Origin: Pseudotabrizicola algicola
GTDB taxonomy: Bacteria; Pseudomonadota; Alphaproteobacteria; Rhodobacterales; Rhodobacteraceae
DNA length: 64,000 bases
Assembly: GCF_010915705.1 (NCBI RefSeq)
Contig: NZ_JAAIKE010000001.1
Location: 1,116,001 to 1,180,000, forward strand
Direction: 5' to 3'
In this document: positions 10,802 through 23,637 of the stretch, one piece after another
Layout: each line of letters opens with the position of its first letter
Position numbering within the stretch: the first letter of the stretch is position 1
The notes under the pieces: generated by a model
Told to the model about the DNA's origin: nothing
Database searches by the model: none
The model's input: only the letters and a program-made list of their open reading frames with translations
Made by a program: the position numbers and the translations under genes

Positions 10802-11815
10802 ATGGAACAATTGCGACTTTGGGCTGTCGCACAGCGTAGCCCGACCTATCAGATTTGTTTCGCCCTTCTGGCGATTGTGATTTCAATTGCCCTGCGACAC
10901 TACCTTGATCCGGTCTTGCCGCCGGGCTTTCCCTATCTGACCTTTTTTCCGGCGGTCATCCTGACCGGCTATTTCGCCGGCACCCGCGCAGGGGTGATCG
11001 TAGCGGTGATCTGCGGCGTTGCCGCGTGGTACTGGTTCCTTGCGCCGCAGGGCAGCTTCGCGATGTCTTTCCAGAGCGCCGTCGCCCTGCTCTTCTACAT
11101 CTTCATCGCGGCAACCGAGATCATCCTGATCCATGCCATGCGCTACGCCCTGACCACGCTGGAGATCGAGCGGGATCGCTCCGACACACTGGCGCAAGCC
11201 AACAAGACCATGTTCCACGAATTGCAGCACCGCGTGTCCAACAATTTGCAGGTCGTGGCGTCTTTGCTGAAAATGCAGCGTCGCAACGTCACGGACGAGG
11301 CTGCGCGCGCCGCGCTCGAGGTGGCGACGGCACGGTTGCAGGTGGTGGCCAGCATTCAGCGGCAACTGCACAATCCCAAGCGTCAAAGCACCGACATGGG
11401 TCAGTTGATGCGCGATGTGCTGCCCGAGGTCGTCAGCAACTCGGCCCTGTCAGACCGCATGGTGCTGGATTTCGACGTGGAGCCTTTGATTGTCACCGGA
11501 GATCAGGCCACCCCCCTTGCCCTTATCATCGTGGAACTTGTCTCGAATGCGGTTGAACACGCAGCCCATGCCCATTCGGATGCTGTCACGCATCTGCACC
11601 TGACAATGCGCAGCCGCGGGCCTCAGGCCGAGATCATCGTTCAAGATGACGGCAAGGGCCTGCCCGCCGATTTCACACCGGAAAAATCGCGCAGCCTCGG
11701 CCTTCGCGTCGCGCTGCAGTTTACCGAGCAACTGGGAGGCAAGCTGGTGTTTGAAAGGGTCAACGGCACAAGGGTCACGCTGACGATCCCGCTGCATCCC
11801 GCCGACGGAAAGTAA
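10802..11815 (+). CDS. Membrane sensor histidine kinase (DUF4118, HisKA_2)
   Basis: Sensor kinase of 337 residues. Residues about 15-112 form four closely spaced membrane helices of the DUF4118/KdpD-like type, with almost no periplasmic loop. A coiled linker follows. The HisKA_2 dimerisation and phosphoacceptor motif is FHELQHRVSNNLQVVASLL with H143 as the probable phospho-His. The ATP-binding domain has VELVSNAVEHA (N box), VQDDGKGLPADF (G1) and SRSLGLRVALQF (G2). HisKA_2/HWE kinases often act in the alphaproteobacterial general stress response, and the PhyR-EcfG locus is 8 kb away. That link is inference. Confidence 0.9.
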   Translation: MEQLRLWAVAQRSPTYQICFALLAIVISIALRHYLDPVLPPGFPYLTFFPAVILTGYFAGTRAGVIVAVICGVAAWYWFLAPQGSFAMSFQSAVALLFYIFIAATEIILIHAMRYALTTLEIERDRSDTLAQANKTMFHELQHRVSNNLQVVASLLKMQRRNVTDEAARAALEVATARLQVVASIQRQLHNPKRQSTDMGQLMRDVLPEVVSNSALSDRMVLDFDVEPLIVTGDQATPLALIIVELVSNAVEHAAHAHSDAVTHLHLTMRSRGPQAEIIVQDDGKGLPADFTPEKSRSLGLRVALQFTEQLGGKLVFERVNGTRVTLTIPLHPADGK

Positions 11816-11824
11816 CCTTCCGCT

Positions 11825-12499
11825 TCACACCAGCCAGACCACACCCGTTGCCGCGATGCCTGCGACCATCACGGCCACCAGCGCGATGGTCAGACGGCCC
11901 GTGAGCATCGTCAAGGCAAGGGCAGCAATCAGGCTTGCCACGATCGATGAAGAAAACGGGATCAATTCCAGCATCGGCATTCCGAGACCCAGAAGCAGGC
12001 ACACTGCGGCAAGCGCAGGCGTCCACCACAAATCCTCGCCGCCGCCCGGCTTTGCCGGGGCGAGCCCGTCAAACCGGCGGGCAGGCTTGCGCAGCCAGAC
12101 CAAGGCCTTGCGCAGCAGCGGGCCGGGCAAGGTGCGATTGCGGATAAACTCCGGCAGCCAGACCTTGTGACGACGCAATACGATCTGTCCCGCGATCAGC
12201 GCGATCACGACGCCCCCCACAATGGATGCACCCGGCACACCGCTCACCGGCGAGATCAACAGCAGCGCCGGAACCAGCAGCACCGCCGCCATGGACGATC
12301 GCCCCATAGCATCCACCAGATCGCCGAGGGCCACCCGCTCGGACCCGCGCGCCGCCTGATAAAGCTGGGCAATCACGCCGTTCAGATCGGCGGCCTCCTC
12401 CTGCGGGTCGCTTCCGGATCGGGCCGATTGTGAGGTCCCGATGCTCGGGTCAACGGCGGCCTGCTGATCCAATCCTGCGCCGTCCTGATTGGCTGACAT
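11825..12499 (-). CDS. ExoD-family exopolysaccharide synthesis protein
   Basis: Inner-membrane protein of the ExoD family, named from Sinorhizobium, where mutants affect exopolysaccharide and alkali tolerance. The 224 residues have a hydrophilic N-terminus (1-48), the signature RVALGDLVDAMGRSSMAAVLLVP-like block around 55-78, and four hydrophobic segments (about 75-107, 160-178, 183-200, 205-222). It is convergent with the kinase (9 bases between stops). An EcfG-type promoter (12568-12592, minus) lies 69 bases upstream, so it is probably induced in the general stress response. Confidence 0.88.
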   Translation of the reverse strand: MSANQDGAGLDQQAAVDPSIGTSQSARSGSDPQEEAADLNGVIAQLYQAARGSERVALGDLVDAMGRSSMAAVLLVPALLLISPVSGVPGASIVGGVVIALIAGQIVLRRHKVWLPEFIRNRTLPGPLLRKALVWLRKPARRFDGLAPAKPGGGEDLWWTPALAAVCLLLGLGMPMLELIPFSSSIVASLIAALALTMLTGRLTIALVAVMVAGIAATGVVWLV

Positions 12500-12567
12500 C
12501 GTCGGCCCCTACCTTTCAACTCTGACCCAAGCACCCGTCCTGCGGGCGATTGCGTCCCATATGGGAT

Positions 12568-12592
12568 AACGCCAACTGGCTTGCAGGGTTCC
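12568..12592 (-). promoter_or_regulatory. EcfG-type promoter of the exoD gene
   Basis: On the minus strand GGAAC (12592-12588) and CGTT (12571-12568) are separated by 16 bases, an exact match to the alphaproteobacterial EcfG consensus GGAAC-N16/17-CGTT. It points at the exoD start at 12499. Confidence 0.85.
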
Positions 12593-12657
12593 CCCCGCAA
12601 ATTCTCTGGGGCCTTGCGCGGCGATAAGCAAATTTCCGCCATGTCGACGATGTGGGG

Positions 12658-12684
12658 GGAACCAACTGCCCCCATGATCGCGTT
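12658..12684 (+). promoter_or_regulatory. Possible EcfG-type promoter with long spacer
   Basis: GGAAC at 12658-12662 and CGTT at 12681-12684 point at the gene starting at 12731. The spacer is 18 bases, one more than the usual maximum, so activity may be weak or start-site selection shifted. It is divergent from the exoD promoter 66 bases away. Confidence 0.5.
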
Positions 12685-12730
12685 AGAAAGGGTGCTGCGC
12701 CGAGGGGCGCACCGTTCAAGGAGCGACACG

Positions 12731-13246
12731 ATGACCGGACCGGACACCTCGCCGCAGATGCCCACCTCCCCGCCCCCATCATCGTCACACCCCAAATCCC
12801 CCAGTCTCAATTTGCCGTGGATGCAGGCACTTATCCGCGCCGGGGCGCAACTGACGCGGCCCGATGTGGCGATGGCAGAGGCAGCCGGATCGGCAAAGGA
12901 TGCGGTGCATTATGTGCTCTGCGGTTCTGGTCCGGGCACGGTGGAAGCGGGGGCAGATTTCCTGACAGCCGTCGCCAAGGCGCGCCGACTGGTCGCGACC
13001 GGCGCACGGCGCGTGGTTTTCCTCACCTTTGGCGACACGAAGGATGGCCGCCTGCACCTGTCCCTCATCAGCTTTGCCCATCACGCCCGTCGGGCGCTTG
13101 TCACGAACCCGGCTGAGTTCGCCGTGGTGCCGATCCGTCGCCCCCGCGTGCTCGATGCGAGCACCGACCCGCAGGCCGAGGCGATGAGCGCATTGCGCAA
13201 TCCTTGCCAGATTGCCAACGTCTGGGATAGCCGCCAGCAGGCCTGA
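12731..13246 (+). CDS. Conserved hypothetical protein, stress-island gene
   Basis: A 171-residue soluble protein of unrecognised family. ATG 12731 is preceded by AAGGAG; upstream in-frame codons run through the putative promoter and are unlikely to be coding. After a Pro/Ser-rich N-terminus (residues 1-26) come MAEAAGSAKDAVHYVLCGSG, a helical AKARRLVATGARRVVFLTFG stretch, and a C-terminus ending NPCQIANVWDS. The part VVFLTFGDTKDGRLHLSLIS resembles beta strands of a small alpha/beta domain. No catalytic motif was recognised. The EcfG-like promoter and neighbours suggest stress induction. Confidence 0.8.
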   Translation: MTGPDTSPQMPTSPPPSSSHPKSPSLNLPWMQALIRAGAQLTRPDVAMAEAAGSAKDAVHYVLCGSGPGTVEAGADFLTAVAKARRLVATGARRVVFLTFGDTKDGRLHLSLISFAHHARRALVTNPAEFAVVPIRRPRVLDASTDPQAEAMSALRNPCQIANVWDSRQQA

Positions 13247-13304
13247 GGTCCAGGATATACGCCGCTGCCCTGTGGCGGCGCAGTTTCCGATCTGCCCATA
13301 AAGA

Positions 13305-13328
13305 AAAGGCCGCCCGAAGGCGGCCTTT
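13305..13328 (-). terminator. Rho-independent terminator after the DUF1328 gene
   Basis: A 10-bp perfect stem AAAGGCCGCC/GGCGGCCTTT (13305-13314 with 13319-13328) has a CGAA loop. Reading on the minus strand it continues into TTCTTTATG. It lies about 57 bases beyond the stop of the small gene at 13385. It may also stop the plus-strand gene ending at 13246. Confidence 0.78.
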
Positions 13329-13384
13329 CCATCGGGTCACAGGCCGTGACCCTTCTGGCTGACTGGGGATCAGCCAAAGACAAG

Positions 13385-13558
13385 TCAAACGGGCGGCTTG
13401 CCACGCACGGCGCGCGCGATCATTGCCACGACAAACAAAACGATAAACACAAAGAACAGGATTTGCGCGATCGAAGCCGAAGCGCCCGCGATACCGCCAA
13501 AGCCAAGGGCCGCTGCAATCAATGCCACGACCAGAAACGTCAATGCCCATCCAAGCAT
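13385..13558 (-). CDS. Small membrane protein, DUF1328 family
   Basis: A 57-residue very hydrophobic protein with two transmembrane helices. It begins [20 protein letters not shown], carries the Gly/Ala turn [12 protein letters not shown], and ends with a basic tail AVRGKPPV. This matches the DUF1328/YtjA family of small inner-membrane proteins. The start ATG at 13558 has AAGGAG nine bases upstream. It has its own EcfG-type promoter (13626-13650) and terminator, so it is a monocistronic member of the stress regulon. Its molecular role is unknown. Confidence 0.9.
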
Positions 13559-13625
13559 GGTGATCTCCTTCGTTGATCTGGTTCAACTGGTTCAGTTTAC
13601 CGCGCCGAAGCGCTCATGCAGGGTC

Positions 13626-13650
13626 AACGTGCGCTGCCCGCTCAGGTTCC
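13626..13650 (-). promoter_or_regulatory. EcfG-type promoter of the DUF1328 gene
   Basis: Minus-strand GGAAC (13650-13646) and CGTT (13629-13626) with a 16-base spacer match the EcfG consensus exactly. It lies 68 bases upstream of the start codon at 13558. Confidence 0.85.
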
Positions 13651-13770
13651 CGCCGCCTCGCATTTACTTTCCGGCGATGCCTGAACCCTGCTTTCCGGCG
13701 TGGATCCTGCCCGCGCGGGGGCGCGAGGCCAGAAGTCCGCGCAACAGGCCGCGGATTTCGATTTTCCGGT

Positions 13771-13795
13771 GGAACCAGAGGGGCTTTGCCGCGTT
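13771..13795 (+). promoter_or_regulatory. EcfG-type promoter of the PLDc_N/holin-like operon
   Basis: GGAAC (13771-13775) and CGTT (13792-13795) with a 16-base spacer match the EcfG consensus exactly. It lies 65 bases before the ATG at 13860 and should drive the three genes up to the terminator at 15589. Confidence 0.87.
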
Positions 13796-13859
13796 GCCTC
13801 GTCACAAGATCGTGGCTGCGCGCCACGGCAGTCTGGCGAAGCCGCAAAGGATACTCGTG

Positions 13860-14066
13860 ATGAACCAGCTCAGCATGTTTGAACTGTCCGGCTTTGGCGG
13901 GCTTCTCATTCTGGCCCTCGACTTGTGGGCCATCATCTCTGTCTTCGGATCGACCGTCAGCACCGGCAAGAAAGTGCTTTGGACGCTTCTGATCATCTTC
14001 TTGCCGATCATCGGCTTCATCGCGTGGTTCTTCCTTGGCCCGCGCGCCGCACAGCGCCGCGTCTGA
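13860..14066 (+). CDS. PLDc_N-domain small membrane protein
   Basis: A 68-residue protein with two transmembrane helices and the phospholipase-D N-terminal (PLDc_N) pattern: a first helix around GGLLILALDLWAIISVFGS, a short basic loop TGKKVLW, and the second helix LLIIFLPIIGFIAWFFLGPR. No PLD catalytic domain follows, so this is the stand-alone membrane form often found as a small envelope protein. ATG 13860 has AAGG upstream. It is the first gene of an operon driven by an EcfG promoter. Confidence 0.88.
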   Translation: MNQLSMFELSGFGGLLILALDLWAIISVFGSTVSTGKKVLWTLLIIFLPIIGFIAWFFLGPRAAQRRV

Positions 14067-14085
14067 ACACCGGAAGGGGTGACAG

Positions 14086-14466
14086 ATGTCGCGTTCGGGA
14101 CTTGAAGGGTTGATCGTGCCGGTGATCGACTTGCTGATGCTGGTAAAGCGCACGGTGACGCTGCGCATTGCTTTGGCAAAGATCGAACTGCGCTCCCGCG
14201 TGGGGGCAATCATCACGGCAGCGGCCCTGTGCCTGATCGCATTGGTTCTGGTCGTCGTGCTGCTCGGGCTTCTGGTTCAGGCCGGTCTTTTGGGGCTGGC
14301 GCTTCTGGGGCTGGGTCCGATCGAGGCGCTCATTACTGCTTCGGCCATTTGTGCCCTTCTGGCCCTGATCCTTGTTCTAGTGGCGCGCCGGCTGGTGCGC
14401 CGCGCAACGCTTCCCCTTTCCTCTCTTTCCGGGCCGGGCGTGACACCGCCCGCCTCCCACCCGTGA
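14086..14466 (+). CDS. Holin-superfamily-like (Holin-X type) membrane protein
   Basis: A 126-residue membrane protein. An amphipathic N-terminal helix (LMLVKRTVTLRIALAKIELR) precedes two long hydrophobic helices, about residues 42-68 and 74-99, joined by a short turn, and a Ser/Pro-rich tail. This is the layout of the phage-holin-family/Actinobacterial Holin-X proteins that accompany DUF883/DUF3618 proteins in many proteobacteria. The name does not imply lysis. It lies 19 bases after the PLDc_N gene and 22 before the next gene, in the EcfG-controlled operon. Confidence 0.82.
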   Translation: MSRSGLEGLIVPVIDLLMLVKRTVTLRIALAKIELRSRVGAIITAAALCLIALVLVVVLLGLLVQAGLLGLALLGLGPIEALITASAICALLALILVLVARRLVRRATLPLSSLSGPGVTPPASHP

Positions 14467-14488
14467 ATGCAATTTTCAGGAGTTTGTC

Positions 14489-15550
14489 ATGGCTCGCACC
14501 CGTTCCTCTGACGCCCTTTTCACCGAAGCTCGCGCAACCGAAGAGGCGCTTCGCGACGCCCTCGCGCGCCTGTCCAGCCGGCTCACCGGAAGCCCTGGTG
14601 CGGCGGACGACCTGCTTGGCCTTGCGGCCGGTCCCTTGGGTCAAACTGTTCTGGCCACTGCCGCCACCCGCGCCCTGCGCAGCTATCCCCTTGCCACCGT
14701 TCTGGTGGGGGCAGGCCTTGCCTGGCTGACCTTCGGGCAGCGGGACAATCAAAGCGTGACAGAGCGCGTCTCGGACACCATCGAAGAATGGCAGGCCCGC
14801 GCCGATGAAGCCCGTGAGGCCGCACAAGAGCGTTTGTCAGAACTCTACGACACCATGGCAGAGCGCGGACATGACGCGGCGGCTTTCGCGCGGGAAAAAG
14901 CGGCTGTCACCGCAGACCTCGCCGCCGATCTGGCCTCTGCCTTTGCGCACGGCCTCTCGGATATGAGCGCGGACGCCGCTGACCGCATCATCGCCGCCCG
15001 TGAACGTGCTTATGCGGCCTTCGCCGCCGGCGCGGAAGCGGCAGAAGACAAGTTGGAAGAGCTTGCGGATGACGCCGACGATCGCAACATCCTGCGTCGC
15101 CATCCCGTTGCCTCGGCCGCTGTCGCGGTTGCATTGGGGGCGGCTCTTGCCACCGCTTTGCAGGCCAACCGCCGTGATGGCGGCTCTTTGTCGGGCTCGG
15201 CCGAACACCTGATGGCAAAGGCCCGCAAGACCTTCGACGCGGAACGCCATGCCGCCGGCCGCGCACTGGGCGAGGCGGCAAGCGCCCTGCGAGCCCGCGG
15301 GACCGAAGCCGCACTGGCGATGGTGTCGGACCTGACCGACATTCTGGAAAGCGCCCGCGACAAGGGTCGCAGCGCTCTGGATGCCGCGGAAGATGCCGCC
15401 GCCGATGTCGAAAAATCTGCGCGCAAATCCTCGCGCCGTGCTGCCGCCAAGGTCAACGGCGCCGCAAAACGCGTCAGTGCCCAGACGCGCGAACGGCGCA
15501 AGGCCACGCAGCGTCTTGCCGACAAGCTGACCGGCGGCCGCCCGAACTGA
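14489..15550 (+). CDS. Long helical envelope-associated protein with DUF883-like segments and histone-like tail
   Basis: A 353-residue protein rich in Ala, Glu, Arg and Asp. Two short hydrophobic segments, near 63-82 (LRSYPLATVLVGAGLAWLTF) and 205-224 (RHPVASAAVAVALGAALATA), each preceded by a Tyr/His-Pro motif, resemble the membrane-binding end of ElaB/DUF883 proteins. Long predicted coiled coils lie between and after them. The last 60 residues are Lys/Arg/Ala-rich (KSARKSSRRAAAKVNGAAKR), like a histone H1 tail. It is the last gene of the EcfG-driven operon. A membrane-associated stress protein is the best guess. The duplicated anchor and basic tail are unusual. Confidence 0.8.
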   Translation: MARTRSSDALFTEARATEEALRDALARLSSRLTGSPGAADDLLGLAAGPLGQTVLATAATRALRSYPLATVLVGAGLAWLTFGQRDNQSVTERVSDTIEEWQARADEAREAAQERLSELYDTMAERGHDAAAFAREKAAVTADLAADLASAFAHGLSDMSADAADRIIAARERAYAAFAAGAEAAEDKLEELADDADDRNILRRHPVASAAVAVALGAALATALQANRRDGGSLSGSAEHLMAKARKTFDAERHAAGRALGEAASALRARGTEAALAMVSDLTDILESARDKGRSALDAAEDAAADVEKSARKSSRRAAAKVNGAAKRVSAQTRERRKATQRLADKLTGGRPN

Positions 15551-15588
15551 TCACGCTTTCCCCCCGCCTCCTCAAGGCAACCCCACCT

Positions 15589-15615
15589 CCCCGTGGCCTC
15601 GGCCACGGGGCTTTT
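15589..15615 (+). terminator. Rho-independent terminator of the PLDc_N/holin-like operon
   Basis: A 10-bp perfect stem CCCCGTGGCC/GGCCACGGGG (15589-15598 with 15601-15610) is followed by CTTTTTC. It lies 39 bases after the stop at 15550 and abuts the end of the converging phospholipase gene. Confidence 0.87.
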
Positions 15616-17178
15616 TCATACCAGTTCGGGCGGCAAGAACGGCACCGCTGTGCCGAACTTTTCCGCAGCGCGCAGATCGTAAGGCAGAATGAAGCCCTGA
15701 CGCGCTTCGGGGGGGCGCGCGATGTTTGACAGCGCCAGACCCCGCCATGCAGCCACAGCCGTCTGGTCGGCGAAATACGCCGCGCCCGCATGATCCGGCA
15801 GCCAATGGGCCATGCACCGCTGACGCACCTGTGCGACAGCGTCGGGTTCTGTCAGCCGCACGCCCGCCTCGGTATCCCATCGCATCGAACGACCGTTCAG
15901 ATTGGCCGAGCCTATGATGGCCACATGATCGAACACCGACACCTTGGCGTGGATATAGATCAGCGGCGCATCGGCCAGCACATCGCGCCCTGCCGTTTGC
16001 AGCGCCCTGCCCCGCTTTCTCTGCGCCGCGCTGCCGATGAACAGGCGCTTGCCGAAACTGCGCTGCAACCGGCGCAGGCATTGGGCTTGGTGCCATTCGC
16101 CCAACTGGGAGTCGAGCCCCTCGCGCCCGTCAAACGCCAGTTCCTCGGGCGCGCCGGGTAACATCAGGATCAGCCCCAGATCTGGCGATTTTCGGGCGGC
16201 CGCGCAAAGGGCGCGTGTCAGCCCGCCATCCCGAAAATACTGCGTTTCCAGATAGATCAGCCCCTTGGCACGGGAAATCGCGGCGCAATGCGCCTCATAA
16301 ATGGTTTGCACGACCGGCTTTGGACCAAAGCGCACCAAGGGCCTGCGCCGCTGCTTTGACAGAGTCACAAGCAGCGCGCCCGTATCAATGGGGGGCACCA
16401 GACCGGCGGTGACAGCCTCAAACGTCTCCAGATGCCGCGCGGCGTCTGCCGCGACGGGCCCGTCGATCATCACCTGCACGTCGTGCCATGTCTGCGCTGC
16501 GGGACGGGCGTGGTCGTGATCGTCATAGCGCCGCTCGTTCAGATCAAGCCCGCCCACATAAAGCCGCTTGCGGTCAAAAACGGCAATCTTCTGGTGATGC
16601 GTGCCGGGGAACAGGCGCGGCACGGGCCAAAGCCTTGGTCGGACCTGCCCGTCGGCGCGCAGGACTGTCAGATCGACAGCCCCCGGCATGTCGCGCAAGG
16701 CATTCGCGCGAAACTCTGGCGACTGGCGGTTGAGCCAGCGGCACATGCGCCAGACCCGCGCCATGATGACAGGAGAGATCAGAAAGCGCGGGACCGATCC
16801 GGTTTCGGCCGGATGCCGTGCAACCGAGGCACGCAAAACCCCGCCCCCCGGCCCCGCCACCTCGGCGGCGGCCTGCAGCAGACGTATGCTGCGCCACGTG
16901 CTGCGGTGCAGGGCCGCCCGCGCCACAGGGTCGAAATCGGACAACGTGATCGTGATGTTCACCCCGCGCCGAAGGCAGGCGATGACAAGATCATACCAGC
17001 GCGGACCGATTGCCCTTGCCTCGGGCGAGCGCAGGCGGGTTTCGGGATCAAAGACCAGAAAGCTGGCGATGATCTCGGACCGAGCCTCCAGAAAGGCACG
17101 CTCCAGCGCCGGATAGGCTTCGGCGGCGGTGATGAACACTGCCGGGGAACTGGCGTCAGAAAGACCGTCGCTGCGCAT
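15616..17178 (-). CDS. Phospholipase D-superfamily protein with two HKD motifs
   Basis: A 520-residue PLD-superfamily enzyme acting on phosphodiesters, probably a phospholipase or phosphatidyltransferase. Both catalytic motifs are intact: H195-K197-D202 in THHQKIAVFD and H410-K412-D417 in IHAKVSVFDHVAIIGSANLN. No signal peptide or transmembrane helix is evident. I use ATG 17178; a GTG five codons upstream (17193) is possible. It follows the stress kinase on the same strand by about 54 bases with no terminator, so it is probably the distal gene of the nepR-ecfG-kinase operon. That suggests membrane-lipid remodelling under stress (inference). Confidence 0.88.
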   Translation of the reverse strand: MRSDGLSDASSPAVFITAAEAYPALERAFLEARSEIIASFLVFDPETRLRSPEARAIGPRWYDLVIACLRRGVNITITLSDFDPVARAALHRSTWRSIRLLQAAAEVAGPGGGVLRASVARHPAETGSVPRFLISPVIMARVWRMCRWLNRQSPEFRANALRDMPGAVDLTVLRADGQVRPRLWPVPRLFPGTHHQKIAVFDRKRLYVGGLDLNERRYDDHDHARPAAQTWHDVQVMIDGPVAADAARHLETFEAVTAGLVPPIDTGALLVTLSKQRRRPLVRFGPKPVVQTIYEAHCAAISRAKGLIYLETQYFRDGGLTRALCAAARKSPDLGLILMLPGAPEELAFDGREGLDSQLGEWHQAQCLRRLQRSFGKRLFIGSAAQRKRGRALQTAGRDVLADAPLIYIHAKVSVFDHVAIIGSANLNGRSMRWDTEAGVRLTEPDAVAQVRQRCMAHWLPDHAGAAYFADQTAVAAWRGLALSNIARPPEARQGFILPYDLRAAEKFGTAVPFLPPELV

Positions 17179-17232
17179 GTCACTGCCTGTCACAAGAAAA
17201 GACCGTCGCCCGTCCGAAGTGCTGTCCTTGGG

Positions 17233-19035
17233 TCAGGACCCTTCTTCCAGTCTGCCCCCTGCGGTCGCATCGGCCGATTGCGGTGCCGCCCGCTCCTCCG
17301 CCTCGGTCAGAGGGCGCAGAGGGAAATCCATTTCCAGAATGTATTCATCGCCGCGGCGGCCCCGCGTGACCTTGCCGTTGAGCTGTTGCGAGAAAGCGGT
17401 CAGCAATTGTGATCCAAACCCGTCACTGCCTTGCATCGGCGGATCGTCTGCGGTGGCGGCGATTGGCATCAGACTGTTGCCGAGCGAAAATCGCGCCATC
17501 CCGCCCCCGATGCGGTGCAGGCTCAGCCCCACGCGGGAACTGGCCGCCCCACTGTTCCAAGAATGCTTGATGACATTCGCCATGCCTTCGGTCAGGAACA
17601 ACGCCAGAGGCACCGCCTGATCAGGCGTCAGCCGGATATCATCCACCGATGCATCGAGGTCAAAGCGCCGCCCGGGGGCCGATCCAATGCGCAGCAGATC
17701 CCCCGCGACACGTGGAAGCAGCTCATCGGCACGAACATCGGTCAGACCGCTGGTCTGGTAAAGCTCGCGGTGCACGGTGGCGAGACTGATCACCCGGTCC
17801 TGCACCGTGCGCATCGCGTCCTTCGCTTCGCTGGTGCGCGCACTGCGAAGCTGCATATTCAGAATGGATGCAATAAGTTGCAGGTTGTTCTTCACGCGGT
17901 GATGCACTTCGCGCAGCAGCACTTCCTTCTGGTGGATCGTGTTCTCCAGATCGGCCTCGTTGCGCACGACGGCTTCGGTCATCCGCTCATAGGCGAGCCC
18001 CACCAGACGCAACTCCAGCGCCGCCCCCTTCATGTCGAGATCGGGCAACTGCCTTTCCCCCGCAGCAAAGGCCGTGATCCGGTCGCGCAGCAGGCGCACA
18101 TGGCGCAGCACTTGGCTTTCCGATGCCAACCATGCCACCAGAAGACTGGCCGCCCACATCAGCATGGGAAACACAAAGGCCGGAAAGGCCCCTTCCAGAA
18201 TGGTGTTGTCCAAGCGGTTGGCAGGCCAGGAGCCGACCAGATACAGCGTCCCCACCTGAAGCGGCACCACGGCAAAGGCCCGCCGCTCGCCGCTCGGGGT
18301 TTCCGCGACAAAACTCTTGCCGCCTGTTTTGAAATAGCTTGTCAGATCACGCCCGACCGGCAGGCTCTGCCCCGCATCATCCATCCCGATCGACGACGTC
18401 AGCAAAGACCCCTGCGCGTCAAAGGTCATCAGCGCCAGAGGTTGCGCATCCTCGCCCTTGGTTGCACGCGTCGCCTGATCGAGCGCGGTATGCGGCAAGG
18501 AGACGAAGGCAAAACCGCTGAGTGCGCCCGCAGCGCCCACGACCGGATGCGAGACGATCAGGACAGAGGTCTTTGACACCGGACCATAGGGATTGACCGC
18601 GATCTTAGGCCCCGGATCGGTCATCAACTGCGCCATCGCCTCGGTGCCAGACAGGTCGCGCGTCTCGTTTCGGGCACCGCAAAGCATCTGGCCGTCGGTG
18701 TTGACGTAACCGGCAAAGGTCACCAGCCCTATGTTGGCCTGCACAACGTTGTCCATCAGACGGCGGCAGGAGGCAATGCCCGCCTCATCCCCGTCTTCCA
18801 GAACCGTGGGAAGGACAGCCGCAAGCGTTGCGGATTTAGCCTGCGCTTTCACGATCTCGGCGATCAGGGGATTGGCCGCGATCAGGGTTTCGCCCTTGAT
18901 CACGTTGGTCACCCGCGCTTCCGCCAGTTTCGCGGTCTGCAAACCCTGAACATAGCTGAGGATGGCGAGCGGCAAGAGCGCCACCCCCATCACAGCCATC
19001 AGTCTGAACCCAAGCCCTGCAAACCGCCGCGGCAT
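17233..19035 (-). CDS. Sensor histidine kinase (HisKA_2) of the general stress response locus
   Basis: Membrane sensor kinase of 600 residues. Transmembrane helices near residues 10-32 and 282-304 flank a periplasmic sensor domain of about 250 residues (Cache-like by position). A HAMP-like linker follows, then HisKA_2 with REVHHRVKNNLQLIASILNM (phospho-His about 379) and a degenerate HATPase domain (LTEGMANVIKHSWN as N box). The start at 19035 is chosen because AAGGAGG lies five bases upstream; an ATG at 19053 overlaps the ecfG stop. Its position after ecfG makes it the likely kinase for PhyR, as in PhyK-type systems. Confidence 0.9.
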   Translation of the reverse strand: MPRRFAGLGFRLMAVMGVALLPLAILSYVQGLQTAKLAEARVTNVIKGETLIAANPLIAEIVKAQAKSATLAAVLPTVLEDGDEAGIASCRRLMDNVVQANIGLVTFAGYVNTDGQMLCGARNETRDLSGTEAMAQLMTDPGPKIAVNPYGPVSKTSVLIVSHPVVGAAGALSGFAFVSLPHTALDQATRATKGEDAQPLALMTFDAQGSLLTSSIGMDDAGQSLPVGRDLTSYFKTGGKSFVAETPSGERRAFAVVPLQVGTLYLVGSWPANRLDNTILEGAFPAFVFPMLMWAASLLVAWLASESQVLRHVRLLRDRITAFAAGERQLPDLDMKGAALELRLVGLAYERMTEAVVRNEADLENTIHQKEVLLREVHHRVKNNLQLIASILNMQLRSARTSEAKDAMRTVQDRVISLATVHRELYQTSGLTDVRADELLPRVAGDLLRIGSAPGRRFDLDASVDDIRLTPDQAVPLALFLTEGMANVIKHSWNSGAASSRVGLSLHRIGGGMARFSLGNSLMPIAATADDPPMQGSDGFGSQLLTAFSQQLNGKVTRGRRGDEYILEMDFPLRPLTEAEERAAPQSADATAGGRLEEGS

Positions 19036-19049
19036 TGCGGCCTCCTTCG

Positions 19050-19625
19050 TCATGCGGCTTGAATGCCCGACCGACCCATCACGGCAAGGGTGGCTCCGGA
19101 TTGCTCCGCCAGAATGTCCTCACCCTCGGCAAGGCCCAGCATTTCGCACAACTTGGCCCGCGCGCGGTTGGCGCGGCTTTTTGCGGTTCCCACCGCCACG
19201 CCCATCATCTGCGCGGCCTCCTCATAGGAATAGCCATTCGCGCCCACCAGAATAAGCACTTCGCGATGCTCCGGAGAAAGCCTGTCGAACGCATTGCTGA
19301 AATCGGTGAAGGCAAGGCGACCGTCATGATGCGGCTTTTCGAACATCGACGCGGCATGCACCCCGTCGGTGTCCGACACCTCGCGGCGGGTCTTGCGCTT
19401 GGACGAAAAGAACGTGTTGCGCAAAATGGTGAACAGCCATGCGCGCATGTCCGTCCCCACAGTGAACTTGTCTATGTTGGACCAGGCTTTCAGGATGGTT
19501 TCCTGAACCAGATCGTCGGCTTCACTGACGTTGCGGGTCAGAGAGATCGCGAAGGCGCGCAAGGAGGGAATGTGGTTTGCCATCTCGTCGCGCGGGTCCA
19601 TGTGGGCCACGGGCACGGATGTCAT
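19050..19625 (-). CDS. ecfG: EcfG-family ECF sigma factor (general stress response)
   Basis: Alternative sigma factor that directs RNA polymerase to general-stress promoters. The 191 residues contain region 2 (ADDLVQETILKAWSNIDKF and GTDMRAWLFTILRNTFFS) and region 4 (LSPEHREVLILVGANGYSYE with the helix-turn-helix MGVAVGTAKSRANRARAKL). The spacing and motifs are those of EcfG/SigT rather than other ECF groups. The start ATG overlaps the nepR stop as ATGA, with AAGGAG inside the end of nepR. Seven exact or near-exact cognate promoters occur within 10 kb of this gene. Confidence 0.95.
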   Translation of the reverse strand: MTSVPVAHMDPRDEMANHIPSLRAFAISLTRNVSEADDLVQETILKAWSNIDKFTVGTDMRAWLFTILRNTFFSSKRKTRREVSDTDGVHAASMFEKPHHDGRLAFTDFSNAFDRLSPEHREVLILVGANGYSYEEAAQMMGVAVGTAKSRANRARAKLCEMLGLAEGEDILAEQSGATLAVMGRSGIQAA

Positions 19626-19783
19626 TTCCCGGACTCCTTCGCCTTGAGTTGCTCAAGCAGCAGCTTGAACCGATCCGGAACATCCTCCTTGAGGGCGTTT
19701 TCATAGACGCGTTTCAGGTTTTCATCGATGTCCTTTCGCAAACTGGACTTCTGGTTGTCACCCGACATATGTTCCATCATCAT
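19622..19783 (-). CDS. nepR: NepR, anti-sigma factor of EcfG
   Basis: Small anti-sigma factor that holds EcfG until phosphorylated PhyR titrates it away. The 53-residue product carries the diagnostic NepR core IDENLKRVYENALKEDVPDR followed by FKLLLEQLKAKESG. Three consecutive ATG codons (19783, 19780, 19777) and another at 19768 could serve as start; the first is used here. It is short enough to be missed by routine ORF calling. It overlaps ecfG by four bases, so the two are translated in balance, and it is divergent from phyR across two overlapping EcfG promoters. Confidence 0.95.
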   Translation of the reverse strand: MMMEHMSGDNQKSSLRKDIDENLKRVYENALKEDVPDRFKLLLEQLKAKESGK

Positions 19784-19812
19784 GATACTCTACTGGTCCC
19801 GCATTTATTCAT

Positions 19813-19838
19813 GGAACCGAACGCGGCGCCAGTGCGTT
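19813..19838 (+). promoter_or_regulatory. EcfG-type promoter of phyR
   Basis: GGAAC (19813-19817) and CGTT (19835-19838) are separated by 17 bases and lie 35 bases before the phyR ATG. It overlaps the opposite promoter 19820-19845 by 19 bases. Confidence 0.92.
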
Positions 19839-19845
19839 TGGTTCC
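19820..19845 (-). promoter_or_regulatory. EcfG-type promoter of nepR-ecfG
   Basis: On the minus strand GGAAC (19845-19841) and CGTT (19823-19820) are separated by 17 bases and lie 37 bases before the first nepR ATG. It shares its core with the phyR promoter, so the pair forms an imperfect palindrome. Confidence 0.92.
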
Positions 19846-19872
19846 GTAGAAATTGAAACTGGGGAGAAAATA

Positions 19873-20682
19873 ATGAGTGCCTCTGCGACCTTCGATCTGA
19901 CGTCGGCAATTGCCGCCGACTTGCCCTTCCTGCGTCGCTATGCACGCGCCCTGACGGGAAGCCAGGATTCCGGTGACCGTTATGCCGCCGCGACGCTGGA
20001 AAGCATCCTGATCGAAGATACGCCCGTGCGCGAAGCCTCGACACCGCGCATCGGGCTGTTCCATTGCTTCCACCGCGTCTGGGCCAGCGCGGGCGCACCT
20101 CTGGAAACCGATGATGACATTCTTGCCAAGCGGGCGCAGGTGCATATGGCGGGCTTGACCCCCAATTCGCGCGAAGCGCTGCTTCTGCATGCCATCGAAG
20201 GGTTTGACCGCCCCGCGATCGCCGAAATCATGGATCATGACGAGGCCGAGGTGCAAAGCCTGCTGGATGCCGCGATCCGCGAGATGGAAGCCTCCGTCAC
20301 CGGCAAGGTGATGGTGATCGAGGACGAGGCGATCATCGCGATGGATATCGTCGATATCGTTGGCCAGATCGGTCACAAGGTCACGGGCGTGGCCCGCACC
20401 CACCGCGAGGCCGTGGAACTGGCCGCGCGCGAGCGTCCCGATCTTATCCTGTCCGATATCCAGCTTGCCGATGACTCGTCCGGCATCGAGGCGGTGAATG
20501 ATATTCTGGCCCAGTTCGAAGATATTCCGGTTATCTTCATCACCGCCTTCCCCGAGCGGCTGCTGACAGGCGACAAGCCCGAGCCCGCCTTCCTGATCAC
20601 CAAGCCGTTTTCGGAAGAACAGGTGCGCTCGGCGGTCAGTCAGGCCATGTTCTTTGCCTCGACCGAAACCCTTCACGCCTAA
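19873..20682 (+). CDS. phyR: PhyR, anti-anti-sigma response regulator
   Basis: Central regulator of the general stress response. The N-terminal half (1-140) is a sigma-like domain that mimics EcfG and binds NepR, with region-4-like LTPNSREALLLHAIEGFDRP. The C-terminal half is a receiver domain with acidic E150/D151, phosphoacceptor D195 (LILSDIQLAD), T224 and K244 (LITKPF). The length of 269 residues is typical. It has its own EcfG promoter, giving positive feedback, and a terminator 24 bases after the stop. Confidence 0.96.
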   Translation: MSASATFDLTSAIAADLPFLRRYARALTGSQDSGDRYAAATLESILIEDTPVREASTPRIGLFHCFHRVWASAGAPLETDDDILAKRAQVHMAGLTPNSREALLLHAIEGFDRPAIAEIMDHDEAEVQSLLDAAIREMEASVTGKVMVIEDEAIIAMDIVDIVGQIGHKVTGVARTHREAVELAARERPDLILSDIQLADDSSGIEAVNDILAQFEDIPVIFITAFPERLLTGDKPEPAFLITKPFSEEQVRSAVSQAMFFASTETLHA

Positions 20683-20706
20683 GTTAAAAGTTCACACACA
20701 GACTTG

Positions 20707-20736
20707 CGCCTGCCCTCTGTGGCAGGCGTTTTTTAT
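20707..20736 (+). terminator. Rho-independent terminator of phyR
   Basis: An 8-bp stem CGCCTGCC/GGCAGGCG (20707-20714 with 20721-20728) has a six-base loop and is followed directly by TTTTTTATT. Confidence 0.9.
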
Positions 20737-20755
20737 TGCGCCACATGCGCTGTTG

Positions 20756-20781
20756 GGAACCCGCCGGAAGAGGTCTGCGTT
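20756..20781 (+). promoter_or_regulatory. EcfG-type promoter of the secreted-protein gene
   Basis: GGAAC (20756-20760) and CGTT (20778-20781) are separated by 17 bases, 55 bases before the ATG at 20837 and immediately after the phyR terminator. The gene is therefore an independent member of the EcfG regulon. Confidence 0.88.
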
Positions 20782-20836
20782 GTAAAGGCAAGCGAAGGCA
20801 CCGCCTTGCGCATCCCACTTGTGAAAGGATCTTACC

Positions 20837-21319
20837 ATGTTCCGCAACGTCCTTATGGCCACCACGGCCCTCTTCCTCGCCAATGCCGCATATGCGCAGG
20901 ACACGACGGTGAGAGAAGTCGCAGTCACCGCTGACATCACCGCAATTTCGAATGCCGAAGCCGCAAGCTTCTGGTCCAACACCGCAAGCGATCTGCAAAA
21001 TGCCATCGTCGCCCGTCTGGTGGACCGCACCGCCGAAGACGGGGTGCGCATCAGCGTCGATATTGACGAGCTGTCGCTGGCCAATTCGTTCCAGAACCAG
21101 CTTGGTCTTGAAGATGCCGTGATGGTCGGCATGGTGAACGTTTCGAGCGAAACAGACAACACCAAGTTCGACACCTATGAACTCACCGTCACCGCGCTGA
21201 CCGCTCAGGCTTTTGCCGTCGACGGCACTGTGCTTGAAGGCGCTTTCACCGACACCCCGGAATACTATGCTGCCCTGATCGCCGCTTTTGCCGATGGCGT
21301 CGTGACCCGCTTGAAGTAA
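20837..21319 (+). CDS. Secreted or periplasmic protein of unknown function
   Basis: A 160-residue exported protein. Residues 1-20 (MFRNVLMATTALFLANAAYA) are a Sec signal peptide with cleavage before QDTT. The mature region alternates short strands and helices (ISVDIDELSLANSF; AVMVGMVNVSSETDN; KFDTYELTVTALTAQ) and ends FADGVVTRLK. There are no cysteines and no catalytic signature. No family recognised. It has an exact EcfG promoter and its own terminator, so it is probably strongly stress-induced in the periplasm. Confidence 0.85.
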   Translation: MFRNVLMATTALFLANAAYAQDTTVREVAVTADITAISNAEAASFWSNTASDLQNAIVARLVDRTAEDGVRISVDIDELSLANSFQNQLGLEDAVMVGMVNVSSETDNTKFDTYELTVTALTAQAFAVDGTVLEGAFTDTPEYYAALIAAFADGVVTRLK

Positions 21320-21341
21320 GTCGTTGACGATCCCAGACAAA

Positions 21342-21368
21342 AGCCCCGGAGCGATCCGGGGCTTTTTT
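21342..21368 (+). terminator. Bidirectional Rho-independent terminator
   Basis: A 9-bp stem AGCCCCGGA/TCCGGGGCT (21342-21350 with 21355-21363) has a GCGA tetraloop. It is followed by TTTTT on the plus strand and by TTTTGTC on the minus strand, so it can end both the secreted-protein gene and dps. Confidence 0.9.
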
Positions 21369-21408
21369 CGTATTGTGGGTCGGGGCGATGCACGCCCCGA
21401 CGCTGGGG

Positions 21409-21903
21409 TCACTTTGCCGTTGCGCGCAGCATCCACGCAGCCTTTTCGTGAAAGGCGCAGCGGGCGGTCAACAGATCGGCAGTCGCCACATCCTCGCCCT
21501 TTTCGGCGCGGGCGATCACGTCACGCATCCGGCGCACCACTTCTTCATGGGCCGCGGCAAGGTCTTCCACCATTTCTTGGGCCGAACCAAGCTTTGCCGG
21601 ATCTTTCACGCAAGACAGCTTGCTGATCTCCGACAGTTGATACGGTGCGATCCGGCCCAAGGCGCGGATACGCTCTGCCAGATCATCGGCGGCCTGAAAC
21701 AGATTGGTGTATTGCTCTTCCGTCAGCACATGGATCGAATGGAACAAGGGGCCTTCGACGTTCCAATGAACGGCATGGGTCTTGAACAGCAAACGATAGG
21801 TGTCGGACAGGGCTTCGCTAAGACCCTGCGCAATGGCGATAACGCCCGTGATACCGGTGTTGATCTTGTCTGCCGCCGGAACGGCCTTGAGTGCTTCAGA
21901 CAC
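21409..21903 (-). CDS. dps: Dps, DNA-protection ferritin-like protein
   Basis: Dodecameric mini-ferritin that oxidises and stores iron with peroxide and protects DNA in starved or stressed cells. The 164 residues contain the inter-subunit ferroxidase centre: THAVHWNVEGPLFHSIHVL (His and Glu ligands) and the Asp/Glu pair in ADDLAERIRALG. The N-terminus is short and only weakly basic. An EcfG promoter lies 53 bases upstream (21956-21981), inside the end of the neighbouring GGDEF gene. It shares a bidirectional terminator with the gene at 20837. Confidence 0.95.
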   Translation of the reverse strand: MSEALKAVPAADKINTGITGVIAIAQGLSEALSDTYRLLFKTHAVHWNVEGPLFHSIHVLTEEQYTNLFQAADDLAERIRALGRIAPYQLSEISKLSCVKDPAKLGSAQEMVEDLAAAHEEVVRRMRDVIARAEKGEDVATADLLTARCAFHEKAAWMLRATAK

Positions 21904-21951
21904 TGGGATTCCTTTCCTTCACGCGCCGCCGGAAGTGGCCGCGCTCTGCCT

Positions 21952-23016
21952 TCAGAACGCCCGCGCAGCAGGCACAGTTCCTTGGCCAGAAGCCAGTTCA
22001 TCTGAAAACGCCATCATCCGGCCGCGTCCGGCACGCTTGGCAGCGTAAAGCGCAAGGTCCGCATCTTGCAGCATCGCTTCTGCAGTCGGCGCGGCGTAGC
22101 GGGTGGAAATGGTCAGCCCCACACTGGCCCCGATCTGGCAAAGATGCCCTTCATAGGGAATGGGCCGCGAAAGCGCCGCGATGATCCGGCCGGCCACCGC
22201 GCCAAGGCGGGCAGCATCGGTCATCCCCGGCAGCAGGATCACGAATTCATCGCCGCCCACCCGCGCCACCAGATCACCCGTCCGCGTTTCCGCGGCCAAG
22301 ACCTGCGCCACAACGCGCAGCACCTGATCCCCTGCCCCGTGACCCAAGGTGTCATTCACCGCCTTGAAGCGATCAAGGTCCAGATGCATCAGCGCAAAAG
22401 GAAGCGCATCCGCTATCGCCTGCGCCAGCCGCAGGTCAAGCGCGCGGCGGTTGCGCAGGCCGGTCAGCGTATCGGTCATGGCCTGCGCCTCTGCCTCGGA
22501 CTTGGCCCCTTGCAGCCGCAGGTTCAGGCGCTGCAACTCTCCCAGAACGGCGCGCTTGACCTCGACCAGATACAGCAGTTCCACCGTCAGGTCGGTGGCC
22601 GCGAAGTCGGCATCGGTGAGTGCATGGGTGCGGACGGCATCCACAACGCCAATGCCGAATGACAGGTTCATGACCAGCCCGCCCGCGTCATCGCAAAGCG
22701 CCAGCCCCCGAAACTCTGCCCCGCCCCCCCTCAGCCCGAGATGCAACCGCTCTCCCTGACGGGCATGAAGGGCGGCTGCGGTTGTGACCCCCGACGGGCG
22801 GCAAACCTCGAACAGATCAAAAAAGTCCAGCCCGAGGATGGCCGCATCCTCCACCGCAGCCCTGCGGACAATTTTTGCCAAGGTCGGGCCAAGCGCGGTG
22901 ATCTGGCCGCTGGCAGACAGGGCCAGATGCATCGGCATCAGCCGGTCCAGCGATCCTTTGGGCAGAACGAGCCGTGCCGCGCCCTGCCCCCGGCCTTGAG
23001 CGGCTTGCCTAGCCAT
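21952..23016 (-). CDS. Diguanylate cyclase with HNOBA-type N-terminal domain
   Basis: Predicted diguanylate cyclase making cyclic di-GMP, 354 residues. Residues about 20-160 match the haem-NO-binding-associated (HNOBA) domain: MPMHLALSASGQITALGPTL, LGLDFFDLFEVCRPSG and FRGLALCDDAGGLVMNLSFG. A short signalling helix (150-178) leads to the GGDEF domain, with DLDRFKAVNDTLGHGAGD, intact GGDEF at 254-258 and an inhibitory-site RTGD at 245-248. It lies 15 bases after the H-NOX-like gene on the same strand, so the two proteins probably form a sensor-output pair. Confidence 0.9.
   Translation of the reverse strand: MARQAAQGRGQGAARLVLPKGSLDRLMPMHLALSASGQITALGPTLAKIVRRAAVEDAAILGLDFFDLFEVCRPSGVTTAAALHARQGERLHLGLRGGGAEFRGLALCDDAGGLVMNLSFGIGVVDAVRTHALTDADFAATDLTVELLYLVEVKRAVLGELQRLNLRLQGAKSEAEAQAMTDTLTGLRNRRALDLRLAQAIADALPFALMHLDLDRFKAVNDTLGHGAGDQVLRVVAQVLAAETRTGDLVARVGGDEFVILLPGMTDAARLGAVAGRIIAALSRPIPYEGHLCQIGASVGLTISTRYAAPTAEAMLQDADLALYAAKRAGRGRMMAFSDELASGQGTVPAARAF
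21956..21981 (-). promoter_or_regulatory. EcfG-type promoter of dps
   Basis: Minus-strand GGAAC (21981-21977) and CGTT (21959-21956) with a 17-base spacer. The whole element lies within the last ten codons of the GGDEF gene (ends 21952), so dps can be transcribed independently of it. Confidence 0.87.
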
Positions 23017-23031
23017 CAGCGTCCCCTTGCA

Positions 23032-23637
23032 TCATGGCGCCCCCACCGCCAGATCAAAACGGCGGCCCTGGGAATGGGCCTCGTCCAGCAGAAGAACCGA
23101 AATCACATCGCGCCCCTGCCGCGACGCCGCCATGTCGAGCAGCACCAGCGCGCCGTAATCATCGGCCATCGCCCGCAGCAGACCGATCAGGATAAACCCC
23201 GCCCCGGCAAACGGCGGCACCGCAAGAATGGCGAATTGACCGCCCCCCCTGTCCTCCAGATACAGGGCGGGCAAATGCAGATCCGGCAGGGCAAGGCGGG
23301 CGCGGTCCGGCAGTTCCTCGAGCGAGTGCAGGAAATCGCGAAAACTCACCCCGCCAAAACGCAGCAGGCGGCGCAAACCGTCCCGCTCCCGCTGCGAAAC
23401 AAGGGCGGTGCCAAGATCCTCCAGTATCGATTCCCGCGCGCGCCCCAGTTCGGCACAGGCCGCGTTCAGCACTGCGTCGGTCAACCCCGGATCATAGCTC
23501 AGCAACGGCTCGAAACTGTCAAATGGCAGGCGCGCGCGCTGAACCACCCGCTGCCAAAGCGCCGCGCCGTGCCGCCGCTTCAGAAAATCTTCCAGCGCGC
23601 GATTGATCAGCCCCAGCACGGAAAGCCCCTGTTTCAT
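23032..23637 (-). CDS. H-NOX (HNOB)-like protein lacking the haem ligand
   Basis: A 201-residue protein whose helical first half and beta-rich second half follow the H-NOX/HNOB layout (INRALEDFLKRRHGAALWQR; FGGVSFRDFLHSLEELP; FILIGLLRAMADDYG). Where H-NOX proteins have the haem-ligating His (NLDEVH in Thermoanaerobacter) this one has Pro110 (SLEELP). The haem-propionate motif YxSxR is replaced by V140, P142 and A144. Haem binding in the normal way is therefore not expected. It is translated just before the HNOBA-GGDEF gene, its probable partner. The assignment is by motif alignment by eye. Confidence 0.75.
   Translation of the reverse strand: MKQGLSVLGLINRALEDFLKRRHGAALWQRVVQRARLPFDSFEPLLSYDPGLTDAVLNAACAELGRARESILEDLGTALVSQRERDGLRRLLRFGGVSFRDFLHSLEELPDRARLALPDLHLPALYLEDRGGGQFAILAVPPFAGAGFILIGLLRAMADDYGALVLLDMAASRQGRDVISVLLLDEAHSQGRRFDLAVGAP

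Follow-up and report, generated by a model that had tools for sequence, protein, structure and literature searches.

A probable interlocked bidirectional EcfG promoter between phyR and nepR-ecfG at the centre of a general-stress island in Pseudotabrizicola algicola

In Alphaproteobacteria, the general stress response depends on how a sigma factor, an anti-sigma factor and an anti-anti-sigma factor are balanced, and the locus described here raises the question of how the opposing sides of this switch are transcribed from the gap that lies between them. We analyzed a stretch of 64,000 nucleotides from Pseudotabrizicola algicola (Rhodobacteraceae; contig NZ_JAAIKE010000001.1, positions 1,116,001 to 1,180,000), referred to as the window, in which phyR (anti-anti-sigma response regulator) is divergent from nepR (anti-sigma factor), and nepR forms a run with ecfG (extracytoplasmic function (ECF) sigma factor) and a sensor kinase gene. 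The original prediction, made from the sequence, listed EcfG-type sites at 19813–19838 and 19820–19845 as two promoters and overlooked that they constitute one interlocked palindromic element. We consider it likely that the promoters of phyR and of nepR-ecfG-kinase are a single 33-bp interlocked bidirectional EcfG promoter at the centre of an autoregulated regional regulon.

The element is an imperfect palindrome of 33 bp (19813–19845) in which 11 of the 12 arm bases match. On the plus strand, the predicted phyR promoter (19813–19838) carries the −35 box GGAAC at 19813–19817 and the −10 box CGTT at 19835–19838, whereas the predicted promoter of nepR-ecfG-kinase on the minus strand (19820–19845) carries its −35 box at 19841–19845 and its −10 box at 19820–19823; the spacer is 17 bases in both. 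Each −10 box sits 2 bp inside the opposite −35 box, and both promoters are exact, so that symmetrical DNA holds the promoter elements of both strands within one footprint, as is characteristic of bidirectional promoters. An RNA hairpin or attenuator was considered and rejected: at the usual spacing, the palindrome would lie upstream of or at both predicted starts, and neither transcript would hold the whole of it.

The genes on both sides identify the locus. The phyR product (19873–20682, plus strand) matched the Pfam PhyR_sigma2, PhyR_sigma-like and receiver models and the NCBIfam PhyR family (354 bits, cut-off 240), and that of nepR (19622–19783, minus) matched Pfam NepR at 55 bits. On the same strand, ecfG (19050–19625; Sigma70_r2/r4_2 and PhyR_sigma2) overlaps nepR by 4 bases and is in turn overlapped by 4 bases by a PhyK-like HisKA_2/HWE sensor kinase gene (17233–19053), whose product scored above the Pfam cut-offs for HisKA_2 and HWE_HK and reached 195 bits against the NCBIfam PhyK model, under its cut-off of 750. 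Thus phyR, nepR and an EcfG-type sigma factor gene are adjacent, the EcfG consensus precedes the regulators' own genes, and an HWE/HisKA_2 kinase is linked, all of which mark a PhyR-NepR-EcfG module. As judged from its genes and sites, the locus is a general-stress control locus, and together with the surrounding genes that carry EcfG promoters of their own it would constitute an autoregulated regional regulon. Elsewhere in the genome to which the window belongs, a 410-residue open frame in L032 (contig C28, 13096–16209) gave a second, weak PhyR sigma-like match.

The conservation of the element was examined in loci of up to 20 kb around phyR from 12 further genomes of the genus and 62 genomes of other genera of the family; four family genomes with short contigs were added later as shorter stretches. 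Seventy-eight loci were mapped, including the window, of which 77 had phyR (13 from the genus, 64 from other genera) and one, L136, was dropped. When at most one mismatch per promoter and spans of 15–60 bp were allowed, an interlocked pair with a span of 31–33 bp was found at 68 of the 77 phyR loci (12/13 in the genus and 56/64 in other genera). With the four short-contig genomes included, all of them positive, the pair was present in 60 of 66 genomes from other genera of the family in which PhyR was matched at E 1e-8. Such pairs occurred in 0 of 3850 Markov-resampled regions and in 1 of 5448 real tiles elsewhere.

Both promoters were exact in 41 of the 68 pairs, and in the aligned pairs each −10 box sits 0–3 bp inside the opposite −35 box. 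The arms were 72–78% identical between genera, compared with 26% for the palindrome centre. The interlocking is nearly absent from other EcfG sites: of 111 core sites, 82 had AACG no more than 3 bases from GGAAC and 104 had GTTCC no more than 3 bases from CGTT, whereas among 244 other exact EcfG sites of these loci the counts were 5 and 2. These sites, their geometry and their conservation are read directly from the DNA. On either side, the DNA 12–18 bp beyond the palindrome is rich in A/T, and these flanks might serve the opposite polymerase as upstream elements. In the core sites, the base between the −35 box (plus C) and the opposite −10 box, position 19819 and its symmetrical partner 19839 in the window, is mostly A (50/64 and 27/47); at other EcfG sites, the same base is A in 35/137 and 27/107.

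If the boxes are read as sigma-factor promoters, EcfG would fire in both directions. One EcfG polymerase would sit at the site in either orientation, two at once being impossible, and each initiation would pick either phyR (anti-anti-sigma) or nepR-ecfG (anti-sigma plus sigma), with each transcription start falling in or beside the opposite −35 box. Given the size of a polymerase footprint, one polymerase would cover both promoters, and occupancy would therefore be exclusive if both work. The palindromic promoter probably fires in only one direction at a time. Since it is chiefly the released sigma factor that drives EcfG promoters, competition would be expected while the response is under way. 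With a shared site, the two initiation rates would stand in a ratio that does not depend on the sigma level, which two separate promoters would not provide. More tentatively, its purpose may be to tie the two outputs together, to hold their ratio or to limit noise as the positive feedback loop turns on. It is possible, although we would not call it probable, that this is a clade-wide ECF architecture in which a shared polymerase site sets the ratio of sigma and anti-sigma to anti-anti-sigma by DNA and so yields a balanced, less noisy switch. If a single site does decide which side is transcribed, 33 bp of DNA hold the set-point of the switch, which point mutations could probe.

Several observations weigh against this reading. 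Eight of the 77 loci lack a pair and a ninth, L072, has its best pair at a span of 27; among the 66 genomes, 6 are without the pair (G035, G043, G072, G075, G136 and G154). At least one box has a mismatch in 27 of the 68 pairs, so both directions may not always work. The base between the boxes is A-rich in core sites only, which EcfG recognition does not account for. Finally, according to the accessible text of a study of Rhodobacter sphaeroides, phyR mRNA increases in response to singlet oxygen, superoxide and diamide, whereas ecfG mRNA does so only under membrane stress and in a PhyR-dependent manner (PMC5830050); these responses to different stresses are unlike a simple fixed ratio. Competition combined with a further input to one of the sides, or the presence of more promoters, would fit the pattern.

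The explanation that survives best after the shared promoter is that two ordinary divergent EcfG promoters overlap only as a consequence of a short intergenic region, both of them working and the overlap having no regulatory role. The gap is often only 70–110 bp, and close packing is common, with back-to-back promoters 6–8 bases apart in four loci of other families. However, the span is 31–33 bp in 68 of the 77 loci, including those with gaps of 136–223 bp or more (L071, L073, L081, L083 and L105), while the centre varies, and we regard this explanation as improbable. Considerably less probable still is that the palindrome serves mainly as an operator for a dimeric regulator and resembles EcfG boxes incidentally. 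The near-symmetrical arms would suit an operator, as would the one A/T base between the boxes that is conserved in core sites and not at other EcfG sites; yet the letters of the arms are EcfG boxes at the normal 16/17 spacing, the distance between the arms varies, and phyR and nepR would be expected to have EcfG promoters in any case. Even when the spacing was left free, 54 of 58 CGTT occurrences on the phyR side, and 47 of 52 on the nepR side, had a spacing of 16 or 17. Least credible is that one direction alone is an active EcfG promoter, the other being a relic or driven by another sigma factor: exactly one side is mismatched in 21 of the 68 pairs (phyR side exact in 14, nepR side exact in 7) and membrane stress in R. 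sphaeroides is reported, in the accessible text, to have raised ecfG mRNA without raising phyR mRNA (PMC5830050), but both sides are exact in 41 of the 68 and neither is the consistent loser (binomial P 0.19).

How far the interlocked promoter extends was then judged by pattern searches and by inspection of phyR loci in other families. A stricter palindrome pattern run on named genomes matched at least 117 stretches; among the matches listed, all 117 adjoined nepR or ecfG and 115 also phyR, the remaining two being truncated where the stretch begins. The titles of 80 of the 117 stretches are Rhodobacterales-type names, one uncultured Neomegalonema, or metagenome-assembled genomes named only to family, class or phylum. 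A looser pattern matched 33 of 150 genomes in the family, at one place each, with 0 control matches, and the 20 loci fetched from these matches all lay likewise at nepR/ecfG. In the order it matched 45 of 196 genomes (1 control match), and in the class 2 of 386 (1 control match), one of the two being the window's own genome. The other class-level match (L342, in G522, a genome from a different family) was dismissed, as it lies near a receiver-domain gene and not at nepR-phyR, and one match in 386 equals the single match of the control. Since both palindrome patterns demand exact boxes, they undercount.

Outside the family, 25 phyR loci were analyzed, of which 15 have ecfG upstream on the opposite strand. 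In all five loci of one genus from a different order-level group (f34), the promoters interlock as a 32-bp pair with a single mismatch, and the other ten divergent loci have no interlocked pair with a span of 29–35. The layout thus appears to belong to the family and to group f34, either by common descent or through two origins. A Fisher test of the family against other families counted L152 as an outgroup positive (1/10), its group having been recognized only later as sharing the layout, and was not relied on. At two loci of other families, L147 and L153, the promoters overlap as 27-bp pairs in which either side carries one mismatch. In four others (L140, L143, L145 and L158), two EcfG promoters lie back to back, 6–8 bases apart, a layout that might also cause polymerase interference. 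As for the switch itself, a PhyR match at E 1e-8 was absent from 82 of the 150 family genomes drawn; it seems to have been lost or to have strongly diverged in about half of the family's genomes.

The central element stands within a cluster of EcfG-type sites. An exact search for GGAAC-N16/17-CGTT on both strands of the window returned seven matches, whose coordinates and strands are those of the original prediction, and no others; in 100 dinucleotide shuffles of the window the mean was 0.71 sites and the maximum 3, with none reaching seven. The distance from the −10 box to the start codon is 68 bases for exoD, 67 for the DUF1328 gene, 64 for the PLDc_N gene, 34 for phyR, 36 for nepR, 55 for the exported-protein gene and 52 for dps; the range originally given was 34–75 bases. 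A scan of the whole genome (4.49 Mb), the check proposed with the prediction, found 77 exact sites, 7 of them in the 9,414-bp island, where the genome density leads one to expect 0.16 (Poisson P ~5e-10, uncorrected for the selection of the stretch). The island is the densest 9.4-kb cluster in the genome, and every other such stretch has at most 3 sites. The reversed motif is commoner genome-wide than the forward motif (148 versus 77), which means that there is no genome-wide enrichment of the motif itself, only local clustering, and that many of the 77 sites are probably chance matches. Chance clustering within the island was ruled out by the shuffles, the genome density and the comparison across the family.

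Among the 70 sites outside the island, 34 lie inside coding sequence as called by a home-made codon-usage gene finder, and 35 are followed within 200 bp by a gene start on the same strand, a count that has no reversed-motif control; 29 of these 35 are not within another coding sequence. The island accordingly holds 7 of about 42 plausible EcfG sites in 0.2% of the genome. Products at the 35 sites include CsbD, PRC-barrel, topoisomerase IB, DUF892, DUF2383, pyridoxamine-oxidase-like, baeRF, AI-2E and OmpA/glycine-zipper proteins, along with LpxC, one MFS transporter, one ABC transporter and further proteins with no evident part in stress; for 9 of the 35, Pfam gave no match at 1e-5. An EcfG table for Sphingomonas melonis also has, in the part of the article accessible, PRC-barrel, topoisomerase IB and general stress protein 26 (PMC6599016). 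One of the next densest groups (L316, contig C24, 49000–59500) contains three EcfG-type sites, ahead of genes for a CitMHS-type transporter, a DUF2383 protein and an FAD/NAD-binding protein. From the promoter-like distances, the recurrence of the sites at the same genes across the genus and partly the family, and the stress-type genes elsewhere in the genome, the seven island sites are very probably EcfG promoters, as originally assigned.

Besides the two central sites, five exact sites precede the target genes. On the minus strand, that at 12568–12592 precedes exoD (11825–12499; Pfam ExoD) and that at 13626–13650 a DUF1328 gene (13385–13558; Pfam). On the plus strand, the site at 13771–13795 precedes a run that encodes a PLDc_N small membrane protein (13860–14066; Pfam), a holin-like protein (14086–14466; Pfam Phage_holin_3_6) and a 353-residue protein (14489–15550), and the site at 20756–20781 precedes a gene for a probable exported protein of an unnamed family (20837–21319; no Pfam match). 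The dps-type ferritin gene (21409–21903, minus; Pfam Ferritin) is preceded by a site at 21956–21981 (minus) located within the upstream GGDEF gene, at its 3' end; a Haem-NO-binding (HNOB) gene followed by this GGDEF gene occupies 21952–23637 on the minus strand, with dps downstream, and the pair is kept in most loci of the genus. Pfam thus bore out the names originally given to ExoD, DUF1328, PLDc_N, the holin-like protein, the ECF sigma factor, NepR, PhyR and Dps; the DUF883-like label of the 353-residue protein was abandoned, there being no match in Pfam or NCBIfam, and the description of the remaining protein as secreted rests on a signal-peptide-like N-terminus judged by eye.

The exported-protein family (~160 residues, near phyR) had 36 matches, representing 31 distinct proteins, in the fetched loci, and an exact EcfG site lay within 160 bp upstream in 32 of the 36. 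An AlphaFold model of the protein (mean predicted local distance difference test score 72.6, predicted template modelling score 0.70) gave best Foldseek matches that include PelC, CsgG, DUF330 and FlgT, at E 4.6e-4 and weaker and template modelling scores below 0.5, which is only a hint of a PelC/CsgG-like periplasmic fold. A BrxE-family match was dismissed (18 bits against a cut-off of 40). Two further genes adjoin the core. A phospholipase D-like gene (15616–17193, minus; PLDc_2/PLDc) starts 39 bases after the kinase gene; no exact EcfG site was found ahead of it in the window or in any of nine genus loci (0/9), and it may be read through from the nepR promoter. At the edge of the island, a second HisKA_2/HWE kinase gene (10802–11815, plus), whose product has a DUF4118 domain, was found in 10 genus loci and has no exact EcfG site.

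We next compared the sites ahead of these genes across the mapped loci, counting loci in which the gene was found with enough upstream DNA. Exact sites preceded the DUF1328 gene in 11/11 loci of the genus and 26/41 of other genera, the PLDc_N gene in 9/9 and 13/24, the exported-protein gene in 11/11 and 4/6, dps in 10/10 and 11/20, nepR in 12/13 and 37/59, and phyR in 12/13 and 45/64; the site ahead of exoD (5/8 and 0/8) is less general than the rest. The baseline was an exact site in 1.6% of random 160-bp windows from the same loci. Outside the nepR-phyR gap, there were 4.6 sites per 20 kb in the genus (reversed-motif control 1.2) and 3.0 in other genera (control 0.41). The clustering around the regulator had originally been called unusual, a view that the average of 3.0 further sites against 0.41 at the 64 other-genus loci does not sustain: it is a family trait, although 8 of the 64 loci have no further exact site. 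The island ties the unnamed exported-protein family, DUF1328, PLDc_N and the holin-like protein to the stress response and offers a starting point for their study.

Literature searches that combined EcfG, phyR and nepR loci with bidirectional, divergent, overlapping and palindromic promoters did not find this layout; most subscription journals lay outside their scope, and older descriptions may exist. Within the literature searched, the module and its consensus are well known, and the interlocked bidirectional form conserved across the family is undescribed. Compared with PhyR-NepR-EcfG loci of Alphaproteobacteria, the window has the same regulators, the same GGAAC-N16/17-CGTT consensus, phyR divergent from nepR-ecfG and an HWE/HisKA_2 kinase nearby; it differs in that the central promoters are interlocked and the targets crowd the locus, the ten divergent loci of other families not being interlocked in the same register.

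The locus RSP_1271–RSP_1274 of R. sphaeroides has the same gene order and a mapped start upstream of nepR, and differs in a Crp-Fnr gene after phyR; the words palindrome and bidirectional do not occur in the accessible text of that paper (PMC5830050). In our set, G061 has a 68-residue NepR, a Crp-type protein downstream of phyR and an exact 32-bp interlocked palindrome, which is exact in all five examined genomes of its genus. From the 68-residue NepR and the Crp-type neighbour, as in the accessible text of PMC5830050, G061 appears to be R. sphaeroides. For the general stress response loci of Rubellimicrobium thermophilum, EcfG promoters have been predicted from the same consensus, and the accessible text has no occurrence of overlap, palindrome or bidirectional (PMC12148442); the strain (L204) has the palindrome beside nepR/ecfG and phyR.

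In the bidirectional sigma70 promoters of Escherichia coli, the two directions share parts of the −10 element, according to the accessible text of Warman et al. (PMC12825309). The same text reports that basal activity proceeds without competition and that strong activation of one direction represses the other and lowers noise (PMC12825309). In the window, by contrast, the −10 boxes (19820–19823 and 19835–19838) are separate and each adjoins the opposite −35 box, the sigma factor is of the ECF type, and conservation across a family concerns a single site. If our reading is true, bidirectional promoters as described for E. coli sigma70 extend to an ECF sigma factor in a conserved role.

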